Shown here: in pieces, positions 6,411 to 46,555 of the stretch
Layout of the letters: every line of letters begins with the position of its first letter
Numbering within the stretch: position 1 is the first letter of the stretch
NCBI RefSeq assembly: GCF_008710285.1
Contig: NZ_VYQF01000015.1
Span: 1-64,000, forward strand
DNA length: 64,000 nucleotides
Direction: 5' to 3'
Source of the DNA: Ginsengibacter hankyongi
GTDB taxonomy: Bacteria > Bacteroidota > Bacteroidia > Chitinophagales > Chitinophagaceae
Position numbers and translations under genes: made by a program
The notes under the pieces: generated by a model
What the model saw: the letters and a program-made list of their open reading frames with translations, nothing else
Told to the model about the DNA's origin: nothing
Database searches by the model: none

Positions 6411-6874
6411 ATTAAAATTATGTTTATGAAAACAAAGTCGGTTAGCGTGGTTGCTGTACAAATTATCCAGGCCTGGCAACATTTTACTATTTCCATGCCA
6501 ACATGCGATAATGTAATCTCATTAGATGATGAAAAACGGTTAATATTTATTCGGGCAGGTCTGTAGTTTTTTGGCCACGGATGGTTTTACCCTTGGTAAT
6601 GTTGGGCGGAATACCAACATACGTTTTAATAGAAGGATAATATTTGTATTAATTGGCGATTACATTCACTTAATGCTTATCAGCTACCTCGGAATTTGCA
6701 TCCTTGCCGGAAGAATATAAATGGTCTGGTGAGCATTTATTTCAACAAAGGAGTGGGATATCATAAATCACCCTTTTTAAAAATCAGAGCTAAGTGCCCG
6801 GTAATAGTTTTTGGCACGATTTTACACGCTGTTTGCAAAGGTTGACCTTTTATTTAATTTTAAAACATAACATC
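6411..6874. other. Intergenic region between divergent kinase and YtxH-like genes
   Basis: Spacer of about 460 bases. Small frames are present, but none has a credible protein. It should carry both divergent promoters; no clear consensus or palindrome was found. Confidence 0.5.
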
Positions 6875-31868: not shown

Positions 31869-33368
31869 TTAAGCAAAAAATCCATGAATAAACCATTGAT
31901 AAGAAGCCTCCGCATCATAATGCCCCGACCTGAAGAGCCAATACCGGCGGCCTTCTTCATCTTCCACACTATAATAATCCCTGTGCTGGCCTTGTTGCAG
32001 CCACCATTCCTGTTCTATGCGTTCGGGGCCATCTGCTCTTATCACTTTATGCAGCTTTCCTTTGTAACGAAAAAGCATAGGCGGGTAATCAGGAACAGGA
32101 GCAGTTACTTCTATCATTTCCGGTTTGTATAAAATTTGTAAGGGCCTTGGCTTATTTACCTGCCAGTTGGTTTGCAATTTCTCATCCAGGTCAAGCGCTT
32201 TTTTAAAGGAACGCTCAGGCCAGTAATGTTCATCAGGCATAAAGCGGTAGATGCAATCATTACCGAGCTTTCCACCAATGCGGTCGAGTAATTCAGACAA
32301 AGCCATATCATCCAATTTTTCTTTGCCATTCCATAGGGTTTCCTGCACGGTTGAAAGCGCCTCAACTTTTAAAGCATTCAGTGTAAAGAGTTCTATGCCG
32401 GCAGCGGGTTCAATAGTTTCAATTTTAATTTCAAATAATTTAAACAGATGCTTACTGTTACAGGAAGGGCGGTTAGTTCCAATGCTAATGCTTTCAATTT
32501 TACCATCTACGCGATAGCCTTTGAACACGGCCATACGCAGGCCTTTTTGCTCTTGCTGTAACCGGTGGCATAAAGTGTTCAGCAATTGTTGTAATGCCAT
32601 TTCAATTCCTGTTGCTGTTCCTATGGCTTCAAGGCAGGGCAATCTTTCCTGGTAGGGTTCTATAGGTTGCACTGGTATTATACCTTCTTCTTCATAACCT
32701 AACGCCTGGCCTAAACGCAGGAGCAGGTTTGTGCCGAAGCGTCTTCTTAATGCACTCTTTGGCATATTCATAAAATCCTTAACATGCCTCAGTCCCAGTT
32801 TTTCCAGCAGCTCTGTTGTTGCAGCTTCCACCCGAAGTGCTGCAGGTGGTAATAATTGCAGTGCTCCCTGATGTGTATTGCTTTCAATAATAAGCTCGTG
32901 TCCATAGCGGGTAACAGCCCATGCCGCCCCGATTGTATCAGCAATAGCAGCCCTTATATGATACCCGAAATTTTTAATTCGTTTAATGATGTCCGTTAGG
33001 TATTGTCTTTCGCTGCCCCACAAATGTGTGCAGCCGGTTACATCAAGTATTAACCCATCAGGAGGATCAATAGCCACAACGGGTGTATAGCGGATGCACC
33101 ATTCAGCAATGCCTTTTAATAATTTTCCCGGCAGTTCCGGCTGATCATCCAACACTTCCAGGGATAAAATAATAGCTCTTGCATCTGCTACCACCATGCC
33201 TTTATAAATGCCCTGCGTTTGTGCGGGTACGTTAGCTGCTGTTACCACCATGCGTCCATGATCGGGCGCAGCTAACACAAAAGGTATTTCCTTTAATCGT
33301 GACTGGCGACGGATGAACCAATCCGTTGTAAGATGAGGGAACCATATCGTTGCAAAACGCTTCTGCAC
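31869..33368 (-). CDS. imuB: ImuB, catalytically dead Y-family polymerase-like protein
   Basis: A protein of 499 residues starting at GTG (33366-33368); no upstream in-frame ATG exists and the start MQKRFATIWFPHLTTDWF matches the family. It has the Y-family fold (palm, finger and little-finger regions), but the first catalytic acidic position is replaced in ATIWFPHLTTDWF and the usual Asp-Glu pair reads LDVTGC, as in known ImuB proteins that act as scaffolds. ImuB recruits DnaE2 and the beta clamp. The GTG is one base after the imuA stop (TAA A GTG), implying translational coupling. Confidence 0.93.
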   Translation of the reverse strand: MQKRFATIWFPHLTTDWFIRRQSRLKEIPFVLAAPDHGRMVVTAANVPAQTQGIYKGMVVADARAIILSLEVLDDQPELPGKLLKGIAEWCIRYTPVVAIDPPDGLILDVTGCTHLWGSERQYLTDIIKRIKNFGYHIRAAIADTIGAAWAVTRYGHELIIESNTHQGALQLLPPAALRVEAATTELLEKLGLRHVKDFMNMPKSALRRRFGTNLLLRLGQALGYEEEGIIPVQPIEPYQERLPCLEAIGTATGIEMALQQLLNTLCHRLQQEQKGLRMAVFKGYRVDGKIESISIGTNRPSCNSKHLFKLFEIKIETIEPAAGIELFTLNALKVEALSTVQETLWNGKEKLDDMALSELLDRIGGKLGNDCIYRFMPDEHYWPERSFKKALDLDEKLQTNWQVNKPRPLQILYKPEMIEVTAPVPDYPPMLFRYKGKLHKVIRADGPERIEQEWWLQQGQHRDYYSVEDEEGRRYWLFRSGHYDAEASYQWFIHGFFA

Positions 33369-33369
33369 T

Positions 33370-34098
33370 TTATCCTGTTTTCTTCTGCTGCTCCAGCGGA
33401 ATTGCTGTAATTACCGGGATATACCGGAAGTTGCCTCCAAAAAATTCTATCTGCCATTTGCCGGGCTTTCCATTTCGTACTTTTAATAACTCTACGTTCC
33501 AGCGCGGAAATCCAATACCCGGCATATCCGTTAACCCGCTTAAAGAAGAAGTAATCTTCCAACGCGTGATGCATGCGGTTGTATTTAAATTACGTGGATT
33601 GCGGCGAAATACAAAACCCGTGACATGGCTTTGTTCCACAGCCAGCTGCAGGCGTCTTGAAGCAGTAAAACTTAATTCCTGCATCTCCCCGATAACGGCA
33701 GCTACACCACTGCATTTTAGGGCTTCTTCCATTGACCAGAGAATTTCTTTTTCTTTTTTTAATTGAATAAAAATGATTTTATCAGGAGCAATACCAAATG
33801 ATTGTAACGCAGGTGGGAAAACACTTTTGGAACTACTGATCCAGATGGATACGCCGGCATTATGCATAAGAGGAGCCAGTATACCGCTAATAAATCCAAC
33901 GGTTGTAGCCAGGTCTTCTGCTTCTGAAAAAATAAATTCATGTATGGCGCCCAAAGGAAATGAAGCATTGGGAAAAGCATTTTTTATAGGCCCGAGATTA
34001 GCATCTACAGCCGTATTCTTCAAGGCAGTTTTAAAGCCTTGTAGGGGAAGAATATCCTTTCGCAATTGAGTGATAATATCTGCTTTTGTTGCTGCCAT
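33370..34098 (-). CDS. imuA: ImuA, RecA-like mutasome protein
   Basis: A protein of 242 residues. The region about 40-170 (FPLGAIHEFIFSEAEDLATTVGFISGI, VSIWISSSKSVFPPALQSFGI, KIIFIQLKKEKEILWSMEEAL) is the RecA-like core of ImuA/SulA-type proteins. No complete Walker A motif is visible, so it may not hydrolyse ATP. It is the first gene of imuA-imuB-dnaE2 and interacts with ImuB in known systems. A 13-bp palindrome 48 bases upstream is a candidate operator. Confidence 0.9.
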   Translation of the reverse strand: MAATKADIITQLRKDILPLQGFKTALKNTAVDANLGPIKNAFPNASFPLGAIHEFIFSEAEDLATTVGFISGILAPLMHNAGVSIWISSSKSVFPPALQSFGIAPDKIIFIQLKKEKEILWSMEEALKCSGVAAVIGEMQELSFTASRRLQLAVEQSHVTGFVFRRNPRNLNTTACITRWKITSSLSGLTDMPGIGFPRWNVELLKVRNGKPGKWQIEFFGGNFRYIPVITAIPLEQQKKTG

Positions 34099-34145
34099 TT
34101 AAATAAATACTATTAAGACTTGCTTTTAATCTTCACACAAAAATA

Positions 34146-34158
34146 CTAAATAATTTAG
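34146..34158. promoter_or_regulatory. Candidate operator upstream of the imu cassette
   Basis: CTAAATAATTTAG is a perfect odd palindrome (6-1-6) located 48 bases before the imuA start. The cassette is normally SOS- or repressor-controlled, so a symmetric site here is a reasonable operator candidate. The match to any known LexA box of this group was not established. Confidence 0.4.
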
Positions 34159-34257
34159 CATTTATCCCTTTCGACTTTTCCTTTATTCAATTAAAGGGAT
34201 GTTCAAATCATTTTATCTTATTAACCGAATTTTTATCTTTTTTTCAATATTCTGTAG

Positions 34258-34504
34258 CTAATAGACAAACTGCATGTGTATGTAGGCGATGAAGATAATT
34301 TTTACCTGAACCTTGCAGTGCACGACTTCCAGGATTTTTTGAAGCATACCGAGAACCCGCATTACGAAGGCACATTGAATACGGCGCTCGATGAAGGGCC
34401 ACGGCTGGCAGCCCGTACCCACTAGCAAACTGCTGCAAATGATGGCGGACCATATTACGGAACATGCACCGAAGGGGGTGGATACTGGGGCGTGGAAGTA
34501 TTGA
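34258..34504 (+). pseudogene. Frameshifted C-terminal remnant of an esterase-like gene
   Basis: One frame (34258-34425) reads KLHVYVGDEDNFYLNLAVHD, continuing to ENPHYEGT. It then degrades, and a second frame (34394-34504) continues as KGHGWQPVPTSKLLQMMADH to GAWKY and a stop. The two halves read as one protein end broken by a frameshift around 34380-34395. No start or N-terminal part exists. The motif style recalls the end of secreted alpha/beta-hydrolase esterases, but the family is uncertain. Confidence 0.6.
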
Positions 34505-34526
34505 TGAACAAGATCAAAGTGCTTAC

Positions 34527-34561
34527 AAGACCTAACAGGTTTTCAAAACCTGTTAGGTCTT
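34527..34561. repeat. 35-bp perfect palindrome (REP-like hairpin)
   Basis: AAGACCTAACAGGTTTT and its exact complement flank a single central C. Hairpins of the form AGACCT...CAGGTTTT are recurrent intergenic elements in Bacteroidota genomes (from memory). It could end transcription in both directions, but no intact gene uses it directly. Confidence 0.8.
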
Positions 34562-34565
34562 ACAC

Positions 34566-34583
34566 CACCTGCGCCAGAACTGG
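34566..34583. repeat. Solo terminus of the ~210-bp MITE-like element
   Basis: ACCTGCGCCAGAACTG matches the right end of the element copy at 41524-41733. The rest of the element is absent. It sits 5 bases from the 35-bp palindrome. Confidence 0.5.
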
Positions 34584-34630
34584 TAAGCACATGTTGGGAC
34601 AAATATGTTAAAATAAAGATTTAGTTCCCA

Positions 34631-35119
34631 CTAAAACCCTATCTTAATTGTTTGAGGAATTCTATCTAATCCAATAATTAAAAAGATTATCAATGCAGTC
34701 GGAAGAACATATACTACTTCAGGCGACCAAATGCCAAGAAACGTATTTATATAAGCATCTCCCTTAAGAGCAGGATCGTAGATAACCTGCACAGTATCTC
34801 CGGCATAATAAGCATCTCTCAGGTATTTATTTCCATAAAATTCATACGTATTATTATTAACCTTAAAATCAACAAGTGGGAGCTGATCATATTTAATTCG
34901 ACCCTGGGAGTAATATTTTTGCTGGTCAAAATATTTTATGATTCCGGTGGTTTTCTTATAGACGATTGTATGATACAGCTTGGGTATAACTGAATAGCCT
35001 AAAAGTAAAGCCATAAGCAACCAATATATTATGTATTTATTGAAGGTTAATTCTTTTGTTTGATTATTAAAGCCCATGATAGCGAAACGTAATTCTTTAT
35101 ATAAATAGTCTATCAGCAT
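34631..35119 (-). CDS. DUF3592-like membrane protein
   Basis: A protein of up to 162 residues (a start at 35077 gives 148 and begins MGFNNQTKELTF). Two membrane helices (about 30-48 and 132-152) flank an extracytoplasmic region with DFKVNNNTYEFYGNKY, then YYAGDTVQVIYDPALKGDAYIN, the V.YDP..P..A.I signature of DUF3592. The family's function is unknown. It sits between the palindrome/solo terminus and the first MITE-like element, so its promoter region abuts mobile-type DNA. Confidence 0.8.
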   Translation of the reverse strand: MLIDYLYKELRFAIMGFNNQTKELTFNKYIIYWLLMALLLGYSVIPKLYHTIVYKKTTGIIKYFDQQKYYSQGRIKYDQLPLVDFKVNNNTYEFYGNKYLRDAYYAGDTVQVIYDPALKGDAYINTFLGIWSPEVVYVLPTALIIFLIIGLDRIPQTIKIGF

Positions 35120-35152
35120 GTAAAATATGAAATGTTTTAAATTTTCAAAACC

Positions 35153-35363
35153 CAGACTGGCGCAAATCTCCAGACCTGTGACTGTTCGTTACTAAATCTT
35201 TATTGAAGGATAAATTCGCAATTTAAAGAAAGGGCCGTCACGGTAGTTCATTGTTTAGTTTTAGATTAAAGATTGGCATAAGATTCATTTTGTATGAAAT
35301 ATGTTGTAATAAGAGATGCTAAGTAACGTCAGTGCACAGGTCAGGAGATTTGCGCCAGAACAG
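35153..35363. mobile_element. MITE-like element, copy 1 (211 bp)
   Basis: Ends are imperfect inverted repeats of about 25 bases (left CTGGCGCAAATCTCC, right complement identical over those 15 bases and continuing similarly). The interior is AT-rich and non-coding, and about 85-90% alike by eye to the copy at 41524-41733. No transposase is present and no clear target-site duplication was seen. The left end lies 33 bases upstream of the DUF3592-like gene. Confidence 0.75.
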
Positions 35364-35406
35364 GAGTCGATTTTGTTTCTTCGATTTTGGCAATAATCCC
35401 GCATTC

Positions 35407-35700
35407 AATAGCCATTGTATCGTGCATTATTGCTAAAATGTAGGACTCAATAGCCATTGTATCGTGTATTATTGCTAAAATGTAGGACTCAATAGCCATT
35501 GTATCGTGTATTATTGCTAAAATGTAGGACTCAATAGCCATTGTATCGTGTATTATTGCTAAAATGTAGGACTCAATAGCCATTGTATCGTGTATTATTG
35601 CTAAAATGTAGGACTCAATAGCCATTGTATCGTGTATTATTGCTAAAATGTAGGACTCAATAGCCATTGTATCGTGTATTATTGCTAAAATGTAGGACTC
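35407..35700. repeat. Minisatellite, 7 x 42 bp
   Basis: Seven tandem 42-bp units beginning AATAGCCATTGTATCG start at 35407, 35449, 35491, 35533, 35575, 35617 and 35659. Units 2-7 are identical and unit 1 has one difference. The near-perfect identity indicates recent expansion. Because 42 is a multiple of three, the minus strand reads as an open frame of 14-residue repeats, but no credible gene is attached. Confidence 0.97.
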
Positions 35701-35860
35701 AAAGGACGTTGTTCCCTTGTATGTGTGCCAATAAATCAATGAGCAAAATATTGCAAAGCAATTGCTTATATTCGCGAAGGGGAGCAAGTCTAAGGCCAGG
35801 CGGAGACTACAGCAAGGGAATAATAATATAAAATATAAACAAAATTTAAAATTCAAAATC

Positions 35861-36673
35861 ATGAAAAATTTAGGATGTATAGTAGCTTTTTTTTTCGCTG
35901 GAAGTGCATTAGTTGTTAATGCTCAAACTCCTGATGCCCTAAAGTCTGCCACTGCTCAAAAATCTCATCAAAAAGGCAATCCCGCTGACACGGAAGTATG
36001 GGGACCCCTGCCGGAAGTAGTTACACCCGGAAAAGATTTCAGAGATCCTCCATCTGATGCTATCATTCTATTTGATGGAAAGAATCTGGATCAATGGGTA
36101 TCTTCAAAAGATGGCTCTGCGGCAAAATGGATTGTTTCTGATGGGGTTTTTACAGTTAACAAGGTTGCTGGTGATATCCAGACAAAGAGAAGTTTTACTA
36201 ACTATCAACTTCATATAGAGTTTCTTATACCCTCAAATATTACCGGCTCGGGACAGGGACGGGGCAATAGTGGAGTATTTCTGGCTGCAACAAATGGAAA
36301 AGCCGGGGGATATGAGATCCAGGTACTTGATGGGTACAATAATGAAAATAAAACTTATGTCAACGGAATGGTAGGCAGTGCCTATAAAGAATCCATCCCG
36401 TTAGTAAACCCGGCACGCAAAGCTGGCGAATGGAATGTTTATGATATAGTTTGGAAAGCGCCAACGTTTAATATAGATTCTACAGTGAAGACCCGTGCTA
36501 AGGTGACTGTTTTTTTTAACGGGGTGCTGGTCCAAAATGATTATGAATTATTAGGGGAGACTGCCTATCTTGGCAAGCATGAGTATGTATATCATGGACC
36601 TGAACCGATCAAATTGCAAGATCATGGTGATCCTGTAAGCTATCGTAATATTTGGGTGCGGGAATTGAAATAA
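35861..36673 (+). CDS. DUF1080 (3-keto-disaccharide hydrolase-type) secreted protein
   Basis: 270 residues from the ATG at 35861, which begins a signal peptide ending VVNAQ; the open frame back to 35762 lacks one. The mature domain has DUF1080 hallmarks: AIILFDGKNLDQWV, AAKWIVSDGVFTV, IQTKRSFTNYQLHIEF, GRGNSGVFL, GGYEIQVLDGYNN and the end DHGDPVSYRNIWVREL. This concanavalin-like fold is associated with glycoside (3-keto-glucoside) hydrolysis. It is exported to the periplasm or surface. The minisatellite ends 160 bases upstream. Confidence 0.93.
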   Translation: MKNLGCIVAFFFAGSALVVNAQTPDALKSATAQKSHQKGNPADTEVWGPLPEVVTPGKDFRDPPSDAIILFDGKNLDQWVSSKDGSAAKWIVSDGVFTVNKVAGDIQTKRSFTNYQLHIEFLIPSNITGSGQGRGNSGVFLAATNGKAGGYEIQVLDGYNNENKTYVNGMVGSAYKESIPLVNPARKAGEWNVYDIVWKAPTFNIDSTVKTRAKVTVFFNGVLVQNDYELLGETAYLGKHEYVYHGPEPIKLQDHGDPVSYRNIWVRELK

Positions 36674-37163
36674 TATAATGTATCACCTTTAGTTGATTGA
36701 ATTAAGAATGGGAGATACTCTATATTGACACGGTGACCTTACTGTCTCAGCGGGGTTTCCCACTAACAAATCCTTTAAAATAAAGCAGTTTCCGTGAAAC
36801 CCGCTGCCGGGAGAATTTGCACACGTTCGAAGCCTAAGCTTCCTATCATTCGAAGTTCGTTTATGCGTCGGGGTTACACGGGAGGTCATAGAGGTTTAAG
36901 ACTCTCTGCTGTGTAGCCACGCCGGGACAATAAAATTTGGAGTAAGGGAAGACTATTGTTTCGAGTACCGAAGCGCAACACACCGCGATTTAAAAACCGT
37001 TGAACTACCGAATTATTGTTTCAAAAGTTAATTGGTATTATATTAGCCAATCAGATGCTCACTATGATATTAAAGAACTATTTATTTTAAATTTAAATTA
37101 CATTTATTAAGACATCGTTCTGTGGATGCCGACCTATATGGAATTCCTATTAAACTGATACTT
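36674..37163. other. Intergenic region with dispersed repeat R1
   Basis: About 490 bases, including repeat R1 (36734-36798 plus a diverged continuation to about 36870). A small frame on the minus strand reflects the repeat and is not credible. Confidence 0.5.
36734..36798. repeat. Dispersed repeat R1, copy 1
   Basis: Begins TGACCTTACTGTCTCAGCGG and runs 65 bases to CCGTGAA. It matches 38187-38251 with about four differences. The following 75 bases (CGAAGTTCGTTTATGCGTCG region) resemble 38790-38836 more weakly. Confidence 0.85.
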
Positions 37164-38189
37164 ATGTTGCCGAAAAATATACCTCTTAAACTCGCAGTAG
37201 CTTTATGCCTTATGAGTGCAGCCATCCCATTATCCTGTAAGAAGAACGGCTCTAACAAAACAATCCCGGGTTCTTCACACAATGTTTATATCGCGGGCTA
37301 TACGATCAGTCAAACGGGTAGCTATACAGCAACATATTGGAAGAATGATTCACCGGTAAATCTCCCAAATAGTCAGGGATCGGGAGCATACCCCCAAGCT
37401 AATGCTATATTCACTAATGGAAGTGATATATATGTGGCTGGCTCTAATAGGGGTAACGGTCTGTTTTGGAAAAACCAGGCACTTCAACCCATACTAAATG
37501 CAGTAAATCTCAATCCTAAATCAATATTTATAACTGGCGGCGATGTGTACGTAGCGGGGGATAGTGTACATGACTATCCAAGCAATCTTAACAGTTATGG
37601 CACCTTTTGGAAAAATAATGTTCCCGTTTATTTGCCCACTTGCAATCTTTCAACAGGCATCACTGTATCGGGAAATGATGTTTATATATCCGGATCAGGT
37701 GCTGGTAAAGCTGCCTACTGGAAAAATGGCAATCCCGTTTATTTAACCGCTTTAGGAGCTAATACTGGCTATGCTTTCGGAATTGCCGTTTCGGGGCAAG
37801 ATGTATATGTTACCGGGGATACAGCCACTTCTTACACCGGTTTGGAGAGTGTTTACTGGAAAAACGGGATCGCAATGCATTTAGAAAATGGAATTCATGC
37901 CTCCGGAATAGCTATTGCCGAAAACGGCGATGTATATGTTAGCGGACAAAGCACCGTAAATTTTAATTCAAGAGCAACATATTGGAAAAATGGTAAATCG
38001 ATCATTTTATCAAATGCACCTTCTGATGCAAAGGCTATTGCATTATCAGGAGAGGATGTGTATGTAGTTGGAGACACAGTTGCGCCATTTCAGATACCAA
38101 CTGCGGTTTATTGGAAGAATGGAGTAATGAAAGCCTTAACCCAAGGCACCGTTTCTTCAAGCGCTACTTCCATTTTTATTGAAAACTGA
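37164..38189 (+). CDS. Beta-propeller-like lipoprotein with YWKNG repeats
   Basis: 341 residues from the ATG at 37164; the GTG at 37122 would precede a poor signal. The signal has a lipobox IPLSC (Cys25 in this frame). The rest is about six to seven repeats of about 45-50 residues, each with DVYVAG(D/S) and YWKNG...L, the rhythm of a beta-propeller. No catalytic motif. The stop TGA at 38187 is exactly the first three bases of dispersed repeat copy 2, so the end may have been set by repeat insertion. Function unknown. Confidence 0.8.
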   Translation: MLPKNIPLKLAVALCLMSAAIPLSCKKNGSNKTIPGSSHNVYIAGYTISQTGSYTATYWKNDSPVNLPNSQGSGAYPQANAIFTNGSDIYVAGSNRGNGLFWKNQALQPILNAVNLNPKSIFITGGDVYVAGDSVHDYPSNLNSYGTFWKNNVPVYLPTCNLSTGITVSGNDVYISGSGAGKAAYWKNGNPVYLTALGANTGYAFGIAVSGQDVYVTGDTATSYTGLESVYWKNGIAMHLENGIHASGIAIAENGDVYVSGQSTVNFNSRATYWKNGKSIILSNAPSDAKAIALSGEDVYVVGDTVAPFQIPTAVYWKNGVMKALTQGTVSSSATSIFIEN

Positions 38190-38251
38190 CCTTACTGTCT
38201 CAGCGGGGTTTCCCACTAACAAGTCTTTTAAAATAAAGCAGTTTCCCCGAA
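38187..38251. repeat. Dispersed repeat R1, copy 2 (supplies a stop codon)
   Basis: 65 bases nearly identical to 36734-36798. Its opening TGA is the stop codon of the 37164 gene. Confidence 0.85.
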
Positions 38252-38280
38252 CGCCATGGAAGGGATGCAACAGCCGTAGT

Positions 38281-38658
38281 TTATTTTTTTATTTTCCTTC
38301 TTGCATACACATAATCAATAAGGAGTACAACAATTAAAATAACAAGTCCAAAAAATTCCCGTGTTTCTTCTACCCAGGGCGTTTCAGCTTTCATGGTATT
38401 TGCAATATCCTGGGCATGGTGTTTCGTGATCCAATCTATTAAACCATTTGTGTCAAACACTTTATATAATGCATATACTGCATAAACTGCAACACCTGTT
38501 AAATAGGCACCGGGAAAAAATTTATTCCTATATGCAAGCCAGCACAACGCCGCAGTATACAAATATATTGGCATCCATACGTAAGGATCCGGATCATTGT
38601 ATTGAAGCGCAGCAAACACTATAAACACAACGCAAAAGAAGATGTTGAAGATTTTCAT
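38281..38658 (-). CDS. TMEM220-like membrane protein
   Basis: 125 residues from the Met at 38658 (MKIFNIFFCVVFIVFAALQY); the Met at 38700 adds 14 doubtful residues. Four hydrophobic helices are visible. The motif AALQYNDPDPYVWMPIYLYTA is characteristic of the TMEM220 family of small integral membrane proteins, whose function is unknown. The C-terminal tail is basic (ARRKIKK), probably cytoplasmic. Convergent with the propeller lipoprotein gene, with a repeat between them. Confidence 0.85.
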   Translation of the reverse strand: MKIFNIFFCVVFIVFAALQYNDPDPYVWMPIYLYTAALCWLAYRNKFFPGAYLTGVAVYAVYALYKVFDTNGLIDWITKHHAQDIANTMKAETPWVEETREFFGLVILIVVLLIDYVYARRKIKK

Positions 38659-39054
38659 GATGCAAATAATTAGCGGTGCATAAATATCAGGATTTTCCAA
38701 CTAATATAAAAGCGCTGCTGAAAAACGCAGCGTAATTATTGTCTCAGCGGGCAATGTCATTAAGTTAGCACAAACCAGGAAGTTTCTATTCGAGGTCTGG
38801 ATCTCCTTTCATTGGAAGTTCGTCTATGCATCGCCGCACTAGTCCAGGCATATATCAAATTTCCCAGGTGTAAGTTTGGAAGCGTTCTTCCCGGTCACCC
38901 TAAAGACAACGGCAAGGAAAACGGCATTTTGAATAAAAATATCATAAATTGACTTCGATTTAAATAAAACGGTTAACGGATTCTGCGATTTTTATTAAAT
39001 CAACAGTTTTTCAAATGAATTTTTTGATGTCCTCTTAAATTTAAACAAGAAAAT
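38659..39054. other. Intergenic region with diverged repeat
   Basis: About 400 bases. GTCTCAGCGGG at about 38742 and TGGAAGTTCGTCTATGCATCG at about 38811-38831 recall the dispersed repeat at 36734-36870, with many transitions. The rest is AT-rich. Confidence 0.45.
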
Positions 39055-41433
39055 ATGAATACCTGCAAAATTTACCCACACAGATTTCTGATTCTCTTCT
39101 CAACTTTAATTCTTTTTTCTCTGAATCTCAGCTCACAGGTAAAAAGTCCATTATTAAGCGGAAAGGAGAAGGATGCCCTTTTCAGGAATCAGACTCAGAT
39201 GCTTGAAACATCGCCTTATAAGAATGATAAATGGCAATTTATAGGGCCGACAAATATAAGTGGCCGATGTACCGACGTAGAAGCAGTTTCACCGCGGGGA
39301 AAAAATTATACCATTTGGGTCGGTTCCGCTGTTGGTGGATTATGGAAATCGACTAATGAAGGAACTACATTCCAACCTGTTTTTGAAGGGATGCCAACGG
39401 CTTCAATAGGAGACATTGCTATAGATCCCGTAAACCCGGATGTGGTCTGGGCAGGCACAGGCGAAGCAAATATTCTCAGAAGCTCTAATGCGGGTTGCGG
39501 TGTGTTTAAGACAACTGACGGAGGAAAGAGCTGGAGTTTAATGGGCCTTGAAAATACTTTTACTATCGGACGCATAAGAATAAATCCGCAAAACACTAAT
39601 ATTGTTTATGTTGCAGCAACCGGACATGAATGGACACCAAATGAGGACCGTGGATTATTTAAGACCACCGATGGAGGTAAATCCTGGACAAAAATTCTCT
39701 ATATCAATTCAAATACGGGCGTTTATGATCTCGTACTGGACCCTAAAGATCCGGATGTTATTTATTGTACCACATGGGAACGCATGCGTCAAAAATGGAG
39801 TGACCCGAGGACCTATGAAACCACCACGAACGATGGCATTTGGAAATCAACGGACGGCGGGAAAACATGGAAAAAAATAAATGAGGGTTTACCCGATGCC
39901 AATAAAAGGGGTCGCATAGGTATAGATATTGCTCAATCGAATCCTAAAGTACTATATGCTTATGTTGATAACTATGAGGTTGCCGTAAAAGCCAACCCCG
40001 GGGAATTAGATGCATACGGGCGGGAGAAATCAACAGGTATTATTAAGGGAGCCACAGTTTACAGGACAGATGATGCCGGAACCACATGGAAACAGGTCAG
40101 CGGTTTAACCCCTGATCAAAAGAAATTTATGCAGAAACATTCAGGAACTTATGGATGGGTTTTCGGACAAATAAGAGTGGACCCCCAGGATGAAAATACG
40201 GTATATACAATGGGTTTGAGCCTAAACCAGTCAACAGATGGAGGGAAGACCTTTAAGTCGCTGGAGGGGCCTCATTCAGATCACCATGGGCTATGGATTG
40301 ATCCTGCCAATTCTAATTATCTTTTAGATGTAGATGATGGCGGGCTTGCCATGTCGTACGATAAAGGCATTACCTGGAAATTACCAATTGATGTTTTACC
40401 CCTTGGACAGTTCTTTAACCTGGCGTACGACATGAGTGTTCCCTTCAGGGTGTTTGGCTCCGTGCAGGACTATGGAAGCTATTATGGAACGGTGGATCTT
40501 GGAAAAGGGAGAGACAAAATATCCCCTGTTGAATTCAAGAGTACGCTCGGAGGTGAAGGCAGTTCTCATGCAGTCAATCCGGTAGATAATAATACTATTT
40601 ACGCAAGTGGGTTTTACGGGAAGCTTAGACGTGCTACAATCAGCACCTTCCCGCAAAATATTAAAGACCTGTTGCCAAAAATGATGCCCGGAGAAGCGCC
40701 TCTTCGTGGTCAGTGGGTTGCCCCAACACTCATTTCTCCTCATAATCCTGATATTATTTATCATGGAATGCAATATGTTATGAAGTCTATAGACCGGGGA
40801 GATACCTGGGAATTTATTAGTCCTGATCTTTCATACAACAATCCTAAGAAAAGAGGAGACATCAGCTATCAAACGATTTCTGCACTCGATGAATCACCTT
40901 TGCGTTCGGGTTTGCTTTACGCCGGAACTGATGACGGAAGAATCTGGAGGACAAAAGATGGCGGGAAAACCTGGGGTGAAATAAGGAACGGTCCTGTACC
41001 TGTAAAGTTTGTTTCAAGGATCGTTGCATCAAAGTATGACATCGGAACCGTCTACATGACCCAAACAGGAAAAAGAGATGATGACTTTCAGGTATATATA
41101 TGGAAATCGACAGATTTTGGTGATACATGGCAGGATATCTCCGGCAATATCCCGATTGGAGGAGTAAACGTTATAAGAGAAGACCCGGCAAATAAGGACA
41201 TATTATATGCAGGAACTGATGGAGGTGTTTTTGTTACAAAAGATGGCGGAAAAAAGTGGGAAGTACTTGGAAATCTTCCATTTTCATATGTTCTCGACCT
41301 TGCCATTCATCCCCGGGATAACATGATCATTATTTCAACGCATGGACGGGGTATCTGGGTGATGGATGCGAACCCGGTAAATGAAAAAGATAAAATCAAA
41401 AAGCCCGATGATGATGATGCCGATGTTCAATAA
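39055..41433 (+). CDS. Secreted BNR/Asp-box (sortilin-like) propeller protein
   Basis: A protein of 792 residues with a signal peptide ending LNLSSQ. It contains many Asp-box motifs ((S/T)xDGGKxW), for example TTDGGKSW (twice), STDGGKTW, KDGGKTW and KDGGKKW, spread through the protein. This indicates a large beta-propeller of the VPS10/sortilin or xyloglucanase-like type. The tail is acidic (KKPDDDDADVQ) and has no T9SS sorting domain. The family is widespread in Bacteroidota and often annotated as glycosyl hydrolase, but catalytic residues are not evident. Likely periplasmic or secreted. Confidence 0.9.
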   Translation: MNTCKIYPHRFLILFSTLILFSLNLSSQVKSPLLSGKEKDALFRNQTQMLETSPYKNDKWQFIGPTNISGRCTDVEAVSPRGKNYTIWVGSAVGGLWKSTNEGTTFQPVFEGMPTASIGDIAIDPVNPDVVWAGTGEANILRSSNAGCGVFKTTDGGKSWSLMGLENTFTIGRIRINPQNTNIVYVAATGHEWTPNEDRGLFKTTDGGKSWTKILYINSNTGVYDLVLDPKDPDVIYCTTWERMRQKWSDPRTYETTTNDGIWKSTDGGKTWKKINEGLPDANKRGRIGIDIAQSNPKVLYAYVDNYEVAVKANPGELDAYGREKSTGIIKGATVYRTDDAGTTWKQVSGLTPDQKKFMQKHSGTYGWVFGQIRVDPQDENTVYTMGLSLNQSTDGGKTFKSLEGPHSDHHGLWIDPANSNYLLDVDDGGLAMSYDKGITWKLPIDVLPLGQFFNLAYDMSVPFRVFGSVQDYGSYYGTVDLGKGRDKISPVEFKSTLGGEGSSHAVNPVDNNTIYASGFYGKLRRATISTFPQNIKDLLPKMMPGEAPLRGQWVAPTLISPHNPDIIYHGMQYVMKSIDRGDTWEFISPDLSYNNPKKRGDISYQTISALDESPLRSGLLYAGTDDGRIWRTKDGGKTWGEIRNGPVPVKFVSRIVASKYDIGTVYMTQTGKRDDDFQVYIWKSTDFGDTWQDISGNIPIGGVNVIREDPANKDILYAGTDGGVFVTKDGGKKWEVLGNLPFSYVLDLAIHPRDNMIIISTHGRGIWVMDANPVNEKDKIKKPDDDDADVQ

Positions 41434-41780
41434 TTGAAAAATGTAGAGGAATATGCTTTTGTGCATATGACAAATTAATTCCCCTGTTATGCATTCCGGT
41501 TTTCATTATCCGCAGGAAAGTCCCAGACTGGCGCAGGTCTACAGATCTGTGACTATTCGTTACTAATCTTTATTGAAGGATAAATTCGCAATTTAAAGAA
41601 AGGGTAGTCACGGTAGTTCATTGTTTAGTTTTACATTGAAGATTGTAATAAGAGCTATTTTGTATGAAATATGTTATAATAGGAGATGCTAAGTAACGCT
41701 TGTGCACGGGTCTGAAGACCTGCGCCAGAACTGAGTAATTAAGCGCAGCAATACCTGCAATAAATAATAAATGATACAAA
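41434..41780. other. Intergenic region dominated by the MITE-like element
   Basis: About 350 bases, of which 210 are the second element copy. No gene. Confidence 0.6.
41524..41733. mobile_element. MITE-like element, copy 2 (210 bp)
   Basis: Left end CTGGCGCAGGTCTACAGA and right end complement CTGGCGCAGGTCTTCAGA form inverted repeats. The interior aligns with copy 1 (for example AAGGATAAATTCGCAATTTA in both). It is non-coding. It ends 47 bases before the YncE/phosphoesterase start, so it may affect that gene's promoter. Confidence 0.75.
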
Positions 41781-44348
41781 ATGAATTATCTCAAATTTAA
41801 TACTGCCCGTTTTATCATCATCTTAATTTCCCTCTCCGTTTTCTCGTCTGTTTCGGTGGCTCAGAAAAAAAATACATTTGGAAATAAGCAAGTAGGCCCG
41901 CAACCCGATGGTAGTATCCTCGTTCCTTCCAATCAACTCATTCGTCCTGCAGGCTTGCAGGTTAATATACATGGCAGGCCTGTTGATCTGGCGCTTTCGC
42001 CGGATGGCAAATTATTGTTTGTAAAAAACATGTCTTCCCTCGATCTCGTAAGAGTAGACGACAAAACCATTCTGCAATCGTTACCCTATAAACATAGCGG
42101 CGCTTCCTTTACAGGCATTTGTCTTTCAACTAACGGTCGCCGCGTATTCGTAACAAATGCAACGAATCGAATAGACATTGCCACCGTGGATGATAACAAT
42201 AGTATGCATTGGAGCGATTCCATCATGCTGCCCAAACCTGCCATTGGCGGGTATCCTGTTCCCGGCGGAATTGCTTTTGATGAAACAGCAAACAAAATTT
42301 ATGTCACGCTTTCAAGAAGCAATTCGCTGGCAGTTGTTACTGCAAATGACCCGAAAGAAATTATTCAAATACCTGTAGGCATAGCTCCTTACGGTGTAAT
42401 ACTGGTAACTCCGCATAAAGCCTACGTAAGCAACTGGGGCGGCCGCCGGCCTCACAAAGCTGAATCTACTTATAATACTTCCGGCTCGCAGGTGTTGGTA
42501 GATCCAAAAACAGGAATCGCAAATGACGGTACCATTTCCGTTATTGACCTGGACAGGAACACAGAAGAAAAATCTATTGAAGTAGGTTTGCATCCGGCCG
42601 GAATGGTACTGAGTCCTTCTCATGATAAATTGTATGTTGCCTGTGCAAACAGTGACCTCATTTCGGTAATCGATACAAAAAGTGACCTTATTATTGATAC
42701 GATATCCGTGCATTTTCAAAAGGACATTCCTTTTGGCAGTGCGCCAAATGCTTTAACTATTTCGCCCGACGGGAAATATCTTTTTGTAGCTAACGGAACT
42801 GAAAATGCATTGTGTGTTATACAAACCGGAAGCCCGGCACGCATTCTCGGGTTGATACCAACTGCCTGGTACCCGGGGTCTGTATTGATGGATAGCACCG
42901 GCAGCACGCTATATGTTGCCAACGTAAAAGGGATCGGGTCGAGGAACCAAAAAACAAACAGCAGCGGTTTCAATTCACATGACCATGAAGGAACGATCTC
43001 TATCATTCCTGTACCGGGTAAGAAAGCGCTTGCTGACATGACGCAAATCGTACATCGGAATAATTCTTATGTTCAGATGTTAGCCAAAACGAAACTTCGT
43101 ACTAACGGTGCCAGGGTGAAAGTGCCTGTGCCGGTAAGCCCCAATCAAACTTCGGTATTTAAACATGTTGTTTATATCATAAAGGAAAACCGCACTTACG
43201 ACCAGGTATTGGGTGATATGCCTCGGGCTAACGGAGATAGTTCTTTGGTAGAATTCGGCAAGCATATTTCGCCCAATCATCATAGCCTGGCAGCTTCGTT
43301 TGTATTGATGGACAATTTTAATTGCAGTGGTGTTTTAAGCGCCGACGGGCACCAATGGACGGATGAAGCGTACGTGACGGATTACCTCGAAAAATCTTTT
43401 GGTGATTTTACACGCAGTTATCCTTATGATGGCGATGATGCTTTGGCTTACGCAAGCTCTGGTTTTATCTGGGATAATGTGCTGGCACATGGTTTGACCT
43501 TCCGCGATTATGGCGAATTTGTAAAGACCATCATCGAACCTGAGGGCGCTACATTTCCTGCTATTTATAAAGACCTGCAAAGCGGGCAAAATAAAATCAG
43601 GATCCATGCTAAAGCAAATCTTGAACAACTGGATCCGTATATCTGCCCTGACTACGCAGGATTTACTACTACGGTACCCGACGCTTCGCGGGTAAAGGCA
43701 TTTCTTAAAGAATTGAAAGGGTATGAAAAGAATAATGATCTCCCGAATTTTATCATCATGGAATTACCCAACGACCATACCTCAGGAACAAGGCCGGGTT
43801 GGCCCACACCCCAGGCAGCTGTGGCTGATAACGACCTTGCCCTTGGCCGGATTGTAGATGCCATTTCGCATAGCAAGTTCTGGAAAGAGACCTGCATTTT
43901 TGTAACCGAAGACGATCCGCAGGCGGGCCTTGATCACGTAGATGGCCACCGGACGGTAGACTTTGTTATCAGTCCGTACACAAAGCGCAGGAAAGTTCTT
44001 TCAACGTACTACTCACAAATAAATATGGTGCGGACGATGGAGAATATCCTTGGCCTTCCGCCAATGAATCAACTCGATCTTACGGCGGAACCCATGCTGG
44101 ATTGTTTTACCAGCCAACCGGATTTTACTCCCTATAATTTTGTAAAGAATAATATTCCGCTTGACCGACTGAATCCTTCATTAGATAATTTATTGGGCGC
44201 TCAATTGTATTGGGCCAAAAAATCGCTGGAGCAGGACCTTGATGATGCAGACCGGATAGACGATGATGTTTTTAATCGTATCATCTGGCATGCGGTAAAA
44301 GGATATGATAGGCCGTACCCGGTAATTAAAGGCCGAGAGGAGAAATGA
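41781..44348 (+). CDS. YncE-like propeller fused to phosphoesterase/alkaline-phosphatase-type domain
   Basis: A protein of 855 residues with a signal peptide ending SVSVAQ. Residues about 50-400 form a YncE/YVTN beta-propeller (PVDLALSPDGKLLFVKN, HPAGMVLSPSHDKLYVAC, ALTISPDGKYLFVANG). Residues about 455-820 are a phosphoesterase-family domain: VYIIKENRTYDQVLGD (about 460), then EDDPQAGLDHVDGHR (about 710), with DH and HR as likely metal ligands. This matches proteins annotated as bifunctional YncE/alkaline phosphatase. It is probably a periplasmic phosphomonoesterase or phospholipase-like enzyme. Confidence 0.92.
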   Translation: MNYLKFNTARFIIILISLSVFSSVSVAQKKNTFGNKQVGPQPDGSILVPSNQLIRPAGLQVNIHGRPVDLALSPDGKLLFVKNMSSLDLVRVDDKTILQSLPYKHSGASFTGICLSTNGRRVFVTNATNRIDIATVDDNNSMHWSDSIMLPKPAIGGYPVPGGIAFDETANKIYVTLSRSNSLAVVTANDPKEIIQIPVGIAPYGVILVTPHKAYVSNWGGRRPHKAESTYNTSGSQVLVDPKTGIANDGTISVIDLDRNTEEKSIEVGLHPAGMVLSPSHDKLYVACANSDLISVIDTKSDLIIDTISVHFQKDIPFGSAPNALTISPDGKYLFVANGTENALCVIQTGSPARILGLIPTAWYPGSVLMDSTGSTLYVANVKGIGSRNQKTNSSGFNSHDHEGTISIIPVPGKKALADMTQIVHRNNSYVQMLAKTKLRTNGARVKVPVPVSPNQTSVFKHVVYIIKENRTYDQVLGDMPRANGDSSLVEFGKHISPNHHSLAASFVLMDNFNCSGVLSADGHQWTDEAYVTDYLEKSFGDFTRSYPYDGDDALAYASSGFIWDNVLAHGLTFRDYGEFVKTIIEPEGATFPAIYKDLQSGQNKIRIHAKANLEQLDPYICPDYAGFTTTVPDASRVKAFLKELKGYEKNNDLPNFIIMELPNDHTSGTRPGWPTPQAAVADNDLALGRIVDAISHSKFWKETCIFVTEDDPQAGLDHVDGHRTVDFVISPYTKRRKVLSTYYSQINMVRTMENILGLPPMNQLDLTAEPMLDCFTSQPDFTPYNFVKNNIPLDRLNPSLDNLLGAQLYWAKKSLEQDLDDADRIDDDVFNRIIWHAVKGYDRPYPVIKGREEK

Positions 44349-44483
44349 TGATTTTTATGTAATCCTTGTTGCTTAGGTCCTAAGTACATTTTATGTAATA
44401 TATTTTTAGAGGTACCAGAAATATTTATCACGGCAAGCGCAACTAACGGTCACAAGCACACTAAGGATTGCAGCAGTTGAAAT

Positions 44484-45032
44484 CTAAGCAAAATAATGCT
44501 GGTTAGTAATTTTTTCATTATCGATAAAAAAAAGAGTTTTCAATCTTGTGCCAGCTTCATTCGTGTATTGAATTTGAAGTATAGAATTTTTTAAACTTAT
44601 TGGAATAATTGGTTGAGCGTCGGCATCAACGCCAGAAACGGAATGATAGCTTTGAATAATATTTACATCGAGCGTAATAGATTCGTTAGGGGCTAAACTA
44701 GTCAATGGTTTTAATTTTGCGCAATAGGTAAATACCTCTGGGTTTAGTATTTGAAGATTATATGCAAAATACTTTGAGTTGTTTTTTAAAGTCAAACCGA
44801 AAAAGCCTTTAATTTCCCAAATATTTATCATATCCTTTGCGTCAAAGTAATTTTCACCTTCTGGAAGATGCATTGCTCCAGGTCTAACATAACTGCCTGT
44901 GCTATGCCTACTACGTTTAATATAATGCAAGGCCGCAACTACTTTAGCTCCTTTAAAATAGTAAAGGAATAGATCAAAAAAATTATTCTTGATAAATATT
45001 GGTATTACCATTCCACAAGTTACAAAAAACAT
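44484..45032 (-). CDS. Hypothetical protein
   Basis: A protein of 182 residues with no recognised family. The N-terminus is hydrophobic and aromatic (IPIFIKNNFFDLFLYYFKGAKVV), which could be an imperfect export signal or buried helix. The rest looks like a beta-sandwich of about 130 residues with strands such as GFFGLTLKNNSKYFAYNLQI and a STTLDVN-like middle. A start at the eighth codon (Met) is possible. A dispersed 78-bp repeat lies 83 bases upstream. Confidence 0.6.
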   Translation of the reverse strand: MFFVTCGMVIPIFIKNNFFDLFLYYFKGAKVVAALHYIKRSRHSTGSYVRPGAMHLPEGENYFDAKDMINIWEIKGFFGLTLKNNSKYFAYNLQILNPEVFTYCAKLKPLTSLAPNESITLDVNIIQSYHSVSGVDADAQPIIPISLKNSILQIQYTNEAGTRLKTLFFIDNEKITNQHYFA

Positions 45033-45114
45033 CGAGGTAGCTTTTGAGTTTGGTTCCTGCTAACCTTAGCAAGCTTCAAATTGAAAGATAGTGCTGTCCG
45101 TATGTGCTTTTGAA

Positions 45115-45192
45115 AAGAAAAATGAAAATCATCCTGTAAACCTATTGCAGGATTTATCTTTTAACCTGTAAACTTTTTTTAGGACGAGTCAT
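45115..45192 (+). repeat. Dispersed 78-bp repeat, copy B
   Basis: Same orientation and nearly the same sequence as 1-78. It lies between two minus-strand genes. Here the CCTG/CAGG pair (CCTGTAAACCTATTGCAGG) is intact and could fold a small hairpin; copy A has lost one pairing base. Confidence 0.85.
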
Positions 45193-45308
45193 CCTTATTT
45201 AGTTAATCGAAATTATTTCTTATCTGTATGTTGAAACGATACTGATGCATCTTGACTATTTTTTTTAAATAATAATTGTACATCGGTCACCTTTTATTTG
45301 CAGCCTGT

Positions 45309-46040
45309 TTATTTCTTTGTCACATTTATTAAATATCCTTCATAGGGTTTCCCGGCGACTGGCCGAAAGTAGATGACAACGCTGTGATCCTGGTCGGAAG
45401 AAATATCGCCGGTGAGTGCGGTCATATATTTCGTTATGTACAATTTTAAATCAGGAGCATTTTTTACTCCCACTGTGAGAAAGCTTTCATTCCTGCTTTT
45501 AATATCAAAATCCTTCAGTTCAATTATAGCTTGTCCCTTTATGTTTTCGTCGTTATAGGATTTTATATGCCATGATAATTTTTCTGTGAGATTAATAAGC
45601 TGGTTCACCACTTCAGTAATTCCCTGTTTGTAAAGCGATTGCCGGAAGTATTGCTGTAGGTCACGAACAACCAATTCGGATAAGCCGGCATCGATAATAA
45701 ACTGCAGCCCGTATCCCGGCTGGAAAATGATTTGCCTGTTCTGCAGCGCAATGAAAATGATTGCGTCGTTATCGAGCTGGGTCTTCTCCAATCCCAGCTC
45801 TTTGGCGATATTTTTTGTGTAAGAACCTGCATCTTCCCCTTCGGGTAACATTTTTATACTGTATAAATATATGGAACAGGTTGTTTTTTTGTGATACGAG
45901 GAAAGCAAATTTTCCAGGCCAGCCCGTGTTTTTGAATCCAGGATACCGGCATCGTCCACCACAAAATGGTGCGTTTTGCAGGCACTCAACAGCACCGGCA
46001 ATATCACCACGAAAATGAATTTTAAATAGCGTTTAGGCAT
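45309..46040 (-). CDS. TPM-domain lipoprotein
   Basis: 243 residues from the Met at 46040 (MPKRYLKFIFVVILPVLLSAC, lipobox LLSAC); the open frame to 46121 lacks a signal. Residues about 27-150 form a TPM domain: VVDDAGILDSKTRAGLENLL, CSIYLYSIKMLPEGE, DNDAIIFIALQNRQI, QPGYGLQFIIDAGLSELVV. TPM proteins include thylakoid acid phosphatase and photosystem repair factors; in bacteria they are membrane-anchored and of unknown role. The C-terminal about 80 residues are an extra domain without known relatives. Confidence 0.85.
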   Translation of the reverse strand: MPKRYLKFIFVVILPVLLSACKTHHFVVDDAGILDSKTRAGLENLLSSYHKKTTCSIYLYSIKMLPEGEDAGSYTKNIAKELGLEKTQLDNDAIIFIALQNRQIIFQPGYGLQFIIDAGLSELVVRDLQQYFRQSLYKQGITEVVNQLINLTEKLSWHIKSYNDENIKGQAIIELKDFDIKSRNESFLTVGVKNAPDLKLYITKYMTALTGDISSDQDHSVVIYFRPVAGKPYEGYLINVTKK

Positions 46041-46555
46041 AATTGTTATGTTGAAATAATTTTGGATGACGGGCAACTCTTTTTGGTTTCTTTCATATTC
46101 GTGATATTCAGTTACTTTCAAATGATATGTACCCGGGTCCTGGCTTCAACATCTTTTACAATTGTTCTTGGGTCGATTTTTGTCATTATGATTTGTCTTT
46201 TACAAACTATCGGCATAGGTAAATTCATTTCTATATTTATATTTTGACCTATCAATCTTGCCTGACTATAATTTTCTAAATATACACACTCTTTTGCACC
46301 AAAAAGTTTAGTTCATAATACAATATTCCGACAGTTATAGATGGTAGTGGCTAAGATTTTCCATCCCTCCGAATTGGCGTAGTGCTTATATGCCAATTAC
46401 CATGACCAGCCCCATTTCCGGTGGCCGGTTTTGTTGGTATCTGTTTGTTGCGGGGAATTCATTTAAATTAAATAGAATGGCCGTTAACAGCCAATTTAGT
46501 GTACAGTACATTGCGTCAATAGATTGAAGCCATTACGTCCATTATGAATAATGCC
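46041..46555. other. Intergenic region
   Basis: About 515 bases between two minus-strand genes. The only structure noticed is a 7-bp inverted repeat AATTGGC/GCCAATT at 46372-46398. No convincing terminator or ORF. Confidence 0.5.

Follow-up and report, generated by a model that had tools for sequence, protein, structure and literature searches.

Two inverted-end elements in Ginsengibacter hankyongi

Two short, related elements with inverted ends in the genome of Ginsengibacter hankyongi (Chitinophagaceae) raise the question of what they are, and of why a two-base difference between them appears at both ends of each copy. They lie in the 64,000-nucleotide stretch analysed here, the window (contig NZ_VYQF01000015.1 of assembly GCF_008710285.1, positions 1 to 64,000), and are called copy 1 and copy 2 below (Table 1). 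We consider it very likely, with a probability of roughly 0.9, that both are miniature, non-autonomous elements built from inverted repetitive extragenic palindromic (REP) units, of the type known as REP doublets forming hairpins (REPINs) or bacterial interspersed mosaic elements (BIMEs), and dependent on a REP-associated tyrosine transposase (RAYT). A first-pass annotation of this DNA had described two related elements with inverted ends, and both are indeed present: each is ~202 bp long, and a DNA search of the own genome aligned them at 88% identity across 209 bases of the query (E = 3e-70). No full-length copies beyond these two were found in its 5.5 Mb (33 contigs). The inverted ends measure ~37 nt each and run through a GTTACT motif, which exceeds the length first given for them. 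Between left and right, the 24-nt arm cores differ by one mismatch within copy 1 and by three within copy 2. As the annotation had noted, AA in copy 1 and GG in copy 2 are each common to both ends of the copy, and the coordinates confirm this (Table 1).

Apart from a few bases beside the ends, the flanks of the two copies are not convincingly related. The right flanks compared at a score of 12.5 against a shuffle mean of 12.0; the left flanks reached 20.5, a score equalled by 1 of 500 shuffles, but the match behind it is gapped, A+T-rich and placed at different distances, ~190 nt from copy 1 and ~15 nt from copy 2. As the flanks are thus unrelated or not collinear, the copies are not one locally duplicated block, and a simple duplication of the whole region, the alternative that the annotation had itself named, is unlikely.

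The ends as units of a dispersed hairpin repeat

Each end of the elements is one unit of a dispersed repeat with the consensus CTGGCGCAGGTCTCCYGACCTGTG-N7-GTTACT-like box. Searched with the element as DNA, 15 of 394 genomes of the family gave matches, mainly to the ends. The unit core, at two mismatches or fewer, was found in 30 of the 394, with none for the reversed-pattern control; across the class it occurred in 2 of 345 genomes, the own genome and one from another family. G096, a family member with many copies, holds 88 unit matches at up to three mismatches (control 0), with at least one place matched on both strands. The own genome has ~7 units: besides the four ends of copies 1 and 2, a single unit stands at 475964 of contig C1, and two lie inverted to each other on C3, at 126460 and 126501; its further rows at three mismatches resemble chance (forward control 3). 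Units occur in inverted pairs with a spacer, of which 55 were extracted (21 from G096), and also singly, clustered or at spacings from 64 to >700 nt. The hairpin-to-box spacing is 7 nt in 139 of 158 units, in a scan that itself demanded a box, and the box reads exactly GTTACT in 90 of the 158 and ATTACT in 30.

An inverted pair of a compensated variant unit (A-T to G-C in the stem) was seen, 94 bp apart, on contig C44 of G526 at 6497 and 6591, in a genome of the same class and another family; further copies of this variant stand in L259 and L260. The sequence of the G526 pair suggests that the system, or a look-alike, extends beyond the family.

Within each end the unit forms a conserved hairpin whose changes are compensated. 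We compiled 169 distinct units that had been picked regardless of stem columns 7-11 and 16-20, with positions 5, 21 and 22 part of the pattern (reversed control, 1 hit). Columns 10 and 17 were paired in 157 of the 169 against a shuffle maximum of 113, and the pairs comprised all four Watson-Crick types (T-A, C-G, G-C and A-T). Columns 7-20, 8-19 and 11-16 likewise exceeded all 1000 shuffles, columns 9-18 equalled the shuffle maximum, and columns 5-22 and 6-21 are almost invariant and did not rise above it. A G-T pair at columns 5-22 is retained in 157 of the 169 units. These shuffles overstate significance, as the loci were mostly fetched by near-consensus patterns and copies from the same genome are related. 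Agreement came from G096 with columns 10 and 17 left free, where 76 of 78 units were Watson-Crick paired; this test used 78 of the 88 matches, and the 10 omitted all had three mismatches. Paired percentages from the scan that yielded the 158 units and 55 pairs are inflated, because that scan demanded at least 5 of 7 stem pairs plus the box.

Units accompany one clade of RAYT genes in relatives

The annotation had proposed a search for a transposase with matching ends, and in relatives a RAYT was found between such ends. Inverted units 665-725 bp apart flank an open reading frame (ORF) of ~185 codons in G045, G028 and G379, and a broken ORF in G344. The proteins of three of these loci (L053, L063 and L051) all pass the cut-off of the NCBIfam model REP_Tyr_transpos (REP-associated tyrosine transposase). 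With a profile of seven such proteins, the sole PDB relative at E <= 0.01 was TnpArep, 4er8 (E = 4e-6, best stretch 44 residues), the only solved structure that matches the clade profile.

We defined the clade as RAYTs of at least 59% identity among the matches listed, fragments included, in the same 394 genomes. Among the matches listed, the unit is present in 11 of 16 genomes with a clade RAYT and in 19 of 378 others (Fisher p = 2e-10); counting intact RAYTs only, again among the matches listed, the figures are 9 of 13 and 21 of 381 (p = 1.5e-8). An extra broken clade piece in G198 (59% identity, two TGA codons) lies in a genome without the unit, and adding it gives 11 of 17 versus 19 of 377 (p = 7e-10). 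The link also holds locus by locus: among the best-scoring loci, 10 of 14 clade RAYT loci carry the unit. Among 16 more distant RAYT loci there is a single, unlike hit, in L113: counting it gives 1 of 16 (p = 4e-4), and leaving it out gives 0 of 16 (Fisher p = 3e-5). Of the four clade loci that lack it, L098, L100 and L101 show other inverted repeats and L099 shows none. A named genome collection returned 28 loci; 26 of them (L151-L176) went through a looser scan, which detected units in 19. A unit pair encloses the RAYT in a Filimonas metagenome-assembled genome (MAG; L155), a Niabella MAG (L156) has eight units, and in Niabella pedocola JCM 31011 (L158) one unit lies next to the RAYT; the looser scan detected no units in a Ferruginibacter MAG (L164).

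Near the copies themselves, a Pfam scan of the ten ORFs at 31872-46121 gave no transposase, in line with the annotation. As the protein search of their genome gave distant RAYTs only, the copies appear to be orphans there. Its other RAYT-like genes, 24-30% identical to the clade RAYT, lie on C1 (2108745, 2109619), C4 (119698, 120609), C6 (65348) and C23 (254717), and two sets of them stand side by side. At up to six mismatches, the unit was not seen around the four Y1_Tnp hits of the genome (three stretches of 6-7 kb, including those on C1 and C23).

The interiors resemble a RAYT leader

The interiors of both copies align to the RAYT leader of G045, a genome of the same genus, at the same place behind the arm and in the same orientation. 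The score was reached by 1 of 3000 dinucleotide shuffles and by 0 of 3882 real windows (best 21, versus 22), the real-window control being for the copy 2 interior only; an earlier test with simple shuffles had given 0 of 500. The likeness is confined to the leader: the body of the G045 gene matched the interiors no better than chance (217 and 37 of 500 shuffles as good), and neither did its 3' tail (364 and 344 of 500). In addition, L152 (JAFEAB010000094.1) has a RAYT element whose left arm equals that of copy 1 over 38 nt, except that it has GG for AA. From this anatomy, the simplest reading of the origin of the copies is a RAYT element that lost its gene, which would probably make them internal-deletion derivatives of such an element. 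The leader remnant thereby supports a derivation of REPINs from RAYT elements.

L152 also holds, at ~6469-6509 and ~0.8 kb past its RAYT element, a second left-type unit that is 95% identical to the copy 1 left arm over 41 nt.

Covariation lies within ends and, in one genome, between them

The shared AA and GG had been taken as a sign that the two ends of one element covary. Covariation in inverted-repeat elements may run within a single end or from one end to the other, two patterns that are easily mistaken for each other and that can be told apart here. Among the 55 extracted inverted pairs, the stem differs between the two ends in 28. Different stems at the two ends, each fully paired internally, occur in three separate cases: G045, the near-identical elements of G379 and G358, and the likewise near-identical ones of G255 and G080. 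Ends thus vary independently elsewhere, which the annotation had named as the finding that would count against it: they often differ while each stays paired.

When ends were re-paired within genomes, all 55 pairs showed 145 differences versus a mean of 159.4 (p = 0.007). This excess likeness stems from G096 (36 versus 50.6, p = 0.002), where 20 of 21 tight pairs have one stem variant at both ends (permutation p = 3e-5). The 34 pairs outside G096 showed 109 differences versus a mean of 108.8 (p = 0.56), at low power, as many genomes contribute one or two pairs; the two copies of the own genome gave p = 0.50, with no power. In this test part of the loci were assigned to genomes by hand, and L098-L101 were among those omitted. 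As a family rule, end-to-end covariation is rejected by the 28 differing pairs together with the null re-pairing outside G096. The family-wide constraint is on each end's own hairpin; the ends of one element are sometimes alike, through common descent or end-to-end copying. The annotation had offered selection for a paired hairpin or end-homogenisation as explanations. Of these, selection for a hairpin formed end to end was not borne out; what is conserved is the hairpin within the individual end. Homogenisation, or descent from elements with similar ends, does occur in G096, and copy 1 fits it as a single case that is no proof.

The AA of copy 1 departs from this constraint. Among the 158 units, AA at both positions is found in the two arms of copy 1 only. 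On the top strand it breaks two pairs of each end hairpin, and on the other strand it leaves G-T pairs; the end-to-end pairing of copy 1 is preserved despite it. In DNA folding, the copy 1 left arm was without the unit hairpin on the top strand, the right arm had a weakened one, and the left arm of copy 2 formed it clearly. Across the copies the tails are end-specific, left resembling left and right resembling right, and for this reason the presence of AA in both arms of copy 1 looks like copying. The best fit is a single change that was carried over to the opposite end, though a lone example cannot tell copying from inheritance.

Origin of the elements and alternative explanations

Together, the anatomy, the repeat family and its RAYT clade suggest a model in which an element with a RAYT gene between like ends underwent internal deletion, leaving two inverted REP-like hairpin units around a short non-coding spacer. 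RAYT would move such miniature elements in trans, on the model of the E. coli enzyme that cuts and rejoins single-stranded REP hairpins, and the cognate RAYT would later have been lost from the own genome. AA may then have arisen once, at one end of copy 1, and been copied to the other, for example by template switching at the quasipalindrome or by repair of a folded single strand. Several observations weigh against such RAYT-dependent elements. The cognate RAYT was not found in the own genome by a protein search, in which the best hit had E = 1e-14 and all 17 of 17 candidates scored 24-31% identity; the number of units there is low; and the canonical REP foot GT[AG]G is absent from the unit. 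Among the matches listed, no clade RAYT accompanies the unit in 19 of the 30 genomes that bear it, and at two mismatches the unit is missing from 5 of 16 RAYT genomes (two of these, G255 and G080, have a variant unit). Pfam Y1_Tnp matched just two of the three RAYT proteins. Only the G045 leader matched strongly: among 11 further RAYT leaders compared, the highest scores were those of Niabella pedocola (18) and L162 (17), and L152 scored 9.5. Weak A+T-rich matches to the interior (E 2e-4 to 5e-4) in G331 (L013), G224 (L014, L023) and G208 (L017, L024) lie at loci without RAYT and are unexplained by a RAYT origin. No empty site could be read in G400 or G198, which hold full-length relatives of the gene at 41781-44348, since a relative of the upstream gene was not found in the flanks examined. 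Finally, AA weakens the end hairpins of copy 1.

The annotation had called the elements MITE-like (miniature inverted-repeat transposable element) and non-autonomous, which holds in spirit: what relatives encode between matching ends is an HUH/Y1 RAYT, acting on single strands, rather than a classical DDE enzyme, and the ends are REP-like hairpins. That they are classical MITEs nonetheless, internally deleted DDE transposons with a palindrome in their terminal inverted repeats by chance, is very improbable. A length of ~200 bp, inverted ends and a non-coding interior would suit it; the gene between such ends, however, is a RAYT (no whole-genome search for a DDE transposase was made), the units also occur outside pairs and at widely differing spacings, and no direct repeat was evident beside the copies when their flanks were inspected by eye. 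It is unlikely, too, that selection maintains one long end-to-end hairpin, of RNA or DNA, with a function in the cell such as at transcript ends. Both copies fold far better than their dinucleotide shuffles (z = -7.5 for copy 1 and -7.0 for copy 2), and copy 1 retains end-to-end pairing though its end hairpins are weakened; yet good folding is expected of any inverted repeat, the three cases with different, internally paired stems at their two ends speak against it, the whole window had no match in Rfam at gathering scores, and copy 1 is not at a transcript end, because it lies between divergent ORFs.

Tentatively, the copies may catch a step that can usually only be deduced, the birth of REPINs by internal deletion of a RAYT element, with the leader retained. 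Copy 1 would then have been corrected from end to end at the expense of its end hairpins, the whole palindrome being made perfect again as though by template switching or through a single-stranded, folded intermediate. The AA and GG could also reflect chance or inheritance, copy 1 descending from an ancestor with AA at both ends and no homogenisation having taken place, a possibility that we put short of even odds. Two copies give a within-genome test no power, and G096 does contain distinct REPIN lineages (GGCC and GGGC types). Set against inheritance are the restriction of AA at both positions to the copy 1 arms, the GG of the family state and of the near-identical L152 arm, and the way in which AA at both ends of one copy runs across the end-specific pattern of the tails. 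The leader-like sequence kept in copies that have no gene, and a change at both ends that opposes the end hairpins, are of moderate interest.

Comparison with known systems

REPINs of Pseudomonas fluorescens SBW25 are inverted REP doublets around a spacer, with a predicted long hairpin and a link to RAYT (Bertels and Rainey 2011, PMC3116915). The window elements share these traits, the RAYT link being seen here in relatives. They differ from the SBW25 elements in PMC3116915 in their longer spacer (in a ~200-bp element), their unit sequence, the lack of a GTGG/GTAG-like foot, and in that there are two full elements only, in a genome where the cognate RAYT was not found.

The RAYT clade partly resembles subclass 2.6 of TnpAREP/RAYT, which Quentin et al. 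2018 (PMC6006769) describe as mostly from Bacteroidetes, with 'atypical', non-GT[AG]G structures, the motifs NH[LIV]H, WQ, YIH[QN]NP and SS, and a median HuH-Y spacing of 82. Our clade has NHFH, WQ and Y[LIV]H[EQ]NP in seven of seven proteins and SS in the extension of six of seven, with a spacing of 83 residues in the first sequence. WQ, SS and the spacing agree with that description, as do flanking structures that have no GT[AG]G foot and recur in the genome; the HuH motif differs, NHFH versus the reported NH[LIV]H. TnpAREP of E. coli is reported to cleave REP single strands at CT and to require a bulge in the stem (PMC8266576). Like the REP/BIME sequences treated there, the units are hairpins with a conserved stem irregularity, here the G-T pair; E. 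coli REPs have GTAG at their foot, whereas here a box resembling GTTACT (AGTAAC on the opposite strand) stands off from the hairpin by 7 nt. In some units, such as those of L051, the box reads CGTC, and CGTC-tagged repeats are listed in Bacteroidetes (PMC3733652).

Compensatory changes in REPINs, and atypical REPs in Bacteroidetes, are already published. What is added here is a concrete consensus and a partner-gene clade for a Bacteroidetes REP/RAYT system, where published repeats are called 'atypical'. The literature searched did not contain this exact unit; the supplement of PMC6006769 may list it.

Coordinates and surroundings of the copies

Table 1. Positions of the two elements and their parts in the window
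Feature	Positions	Strand
Copy 1, probable non-autonomous inverted-REP element (REPIN/BIME type)	35157..35358	+
Copy 1 left REP unit, with CTGG on its outer and GTTACT on its inner side; AA at 35165-35166 replaces family GG	35157..35193	+
Copy 1 right REP unit, inverted; AA mirrored at 35349-35350	35322..35358	-
Copy 1 interior, similar to 5' leader of G045 RAYT gene	35202..35267	+
Copy 2, probable non-autonomous inverted-REP element	41528..41728	+
Copy 2 left REP unit; GG at 41536-41537	41528..41564	+
Copy 2 right REP unit; GG mirrored at 41719-41720	41692..41728	-
Copy 2 interior, similar to 5' leader of G045 RAYT gene	41572..41637	+

Neither a blastn search of plasmids nor a search of viral contigs with one exact gapped pattern gave a match. 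Positions 35405-35702, from ~45 bases to the right of copy 1 onward, hold a tandem repeat with a 42-bp period (7.1 copies, 99% matching).

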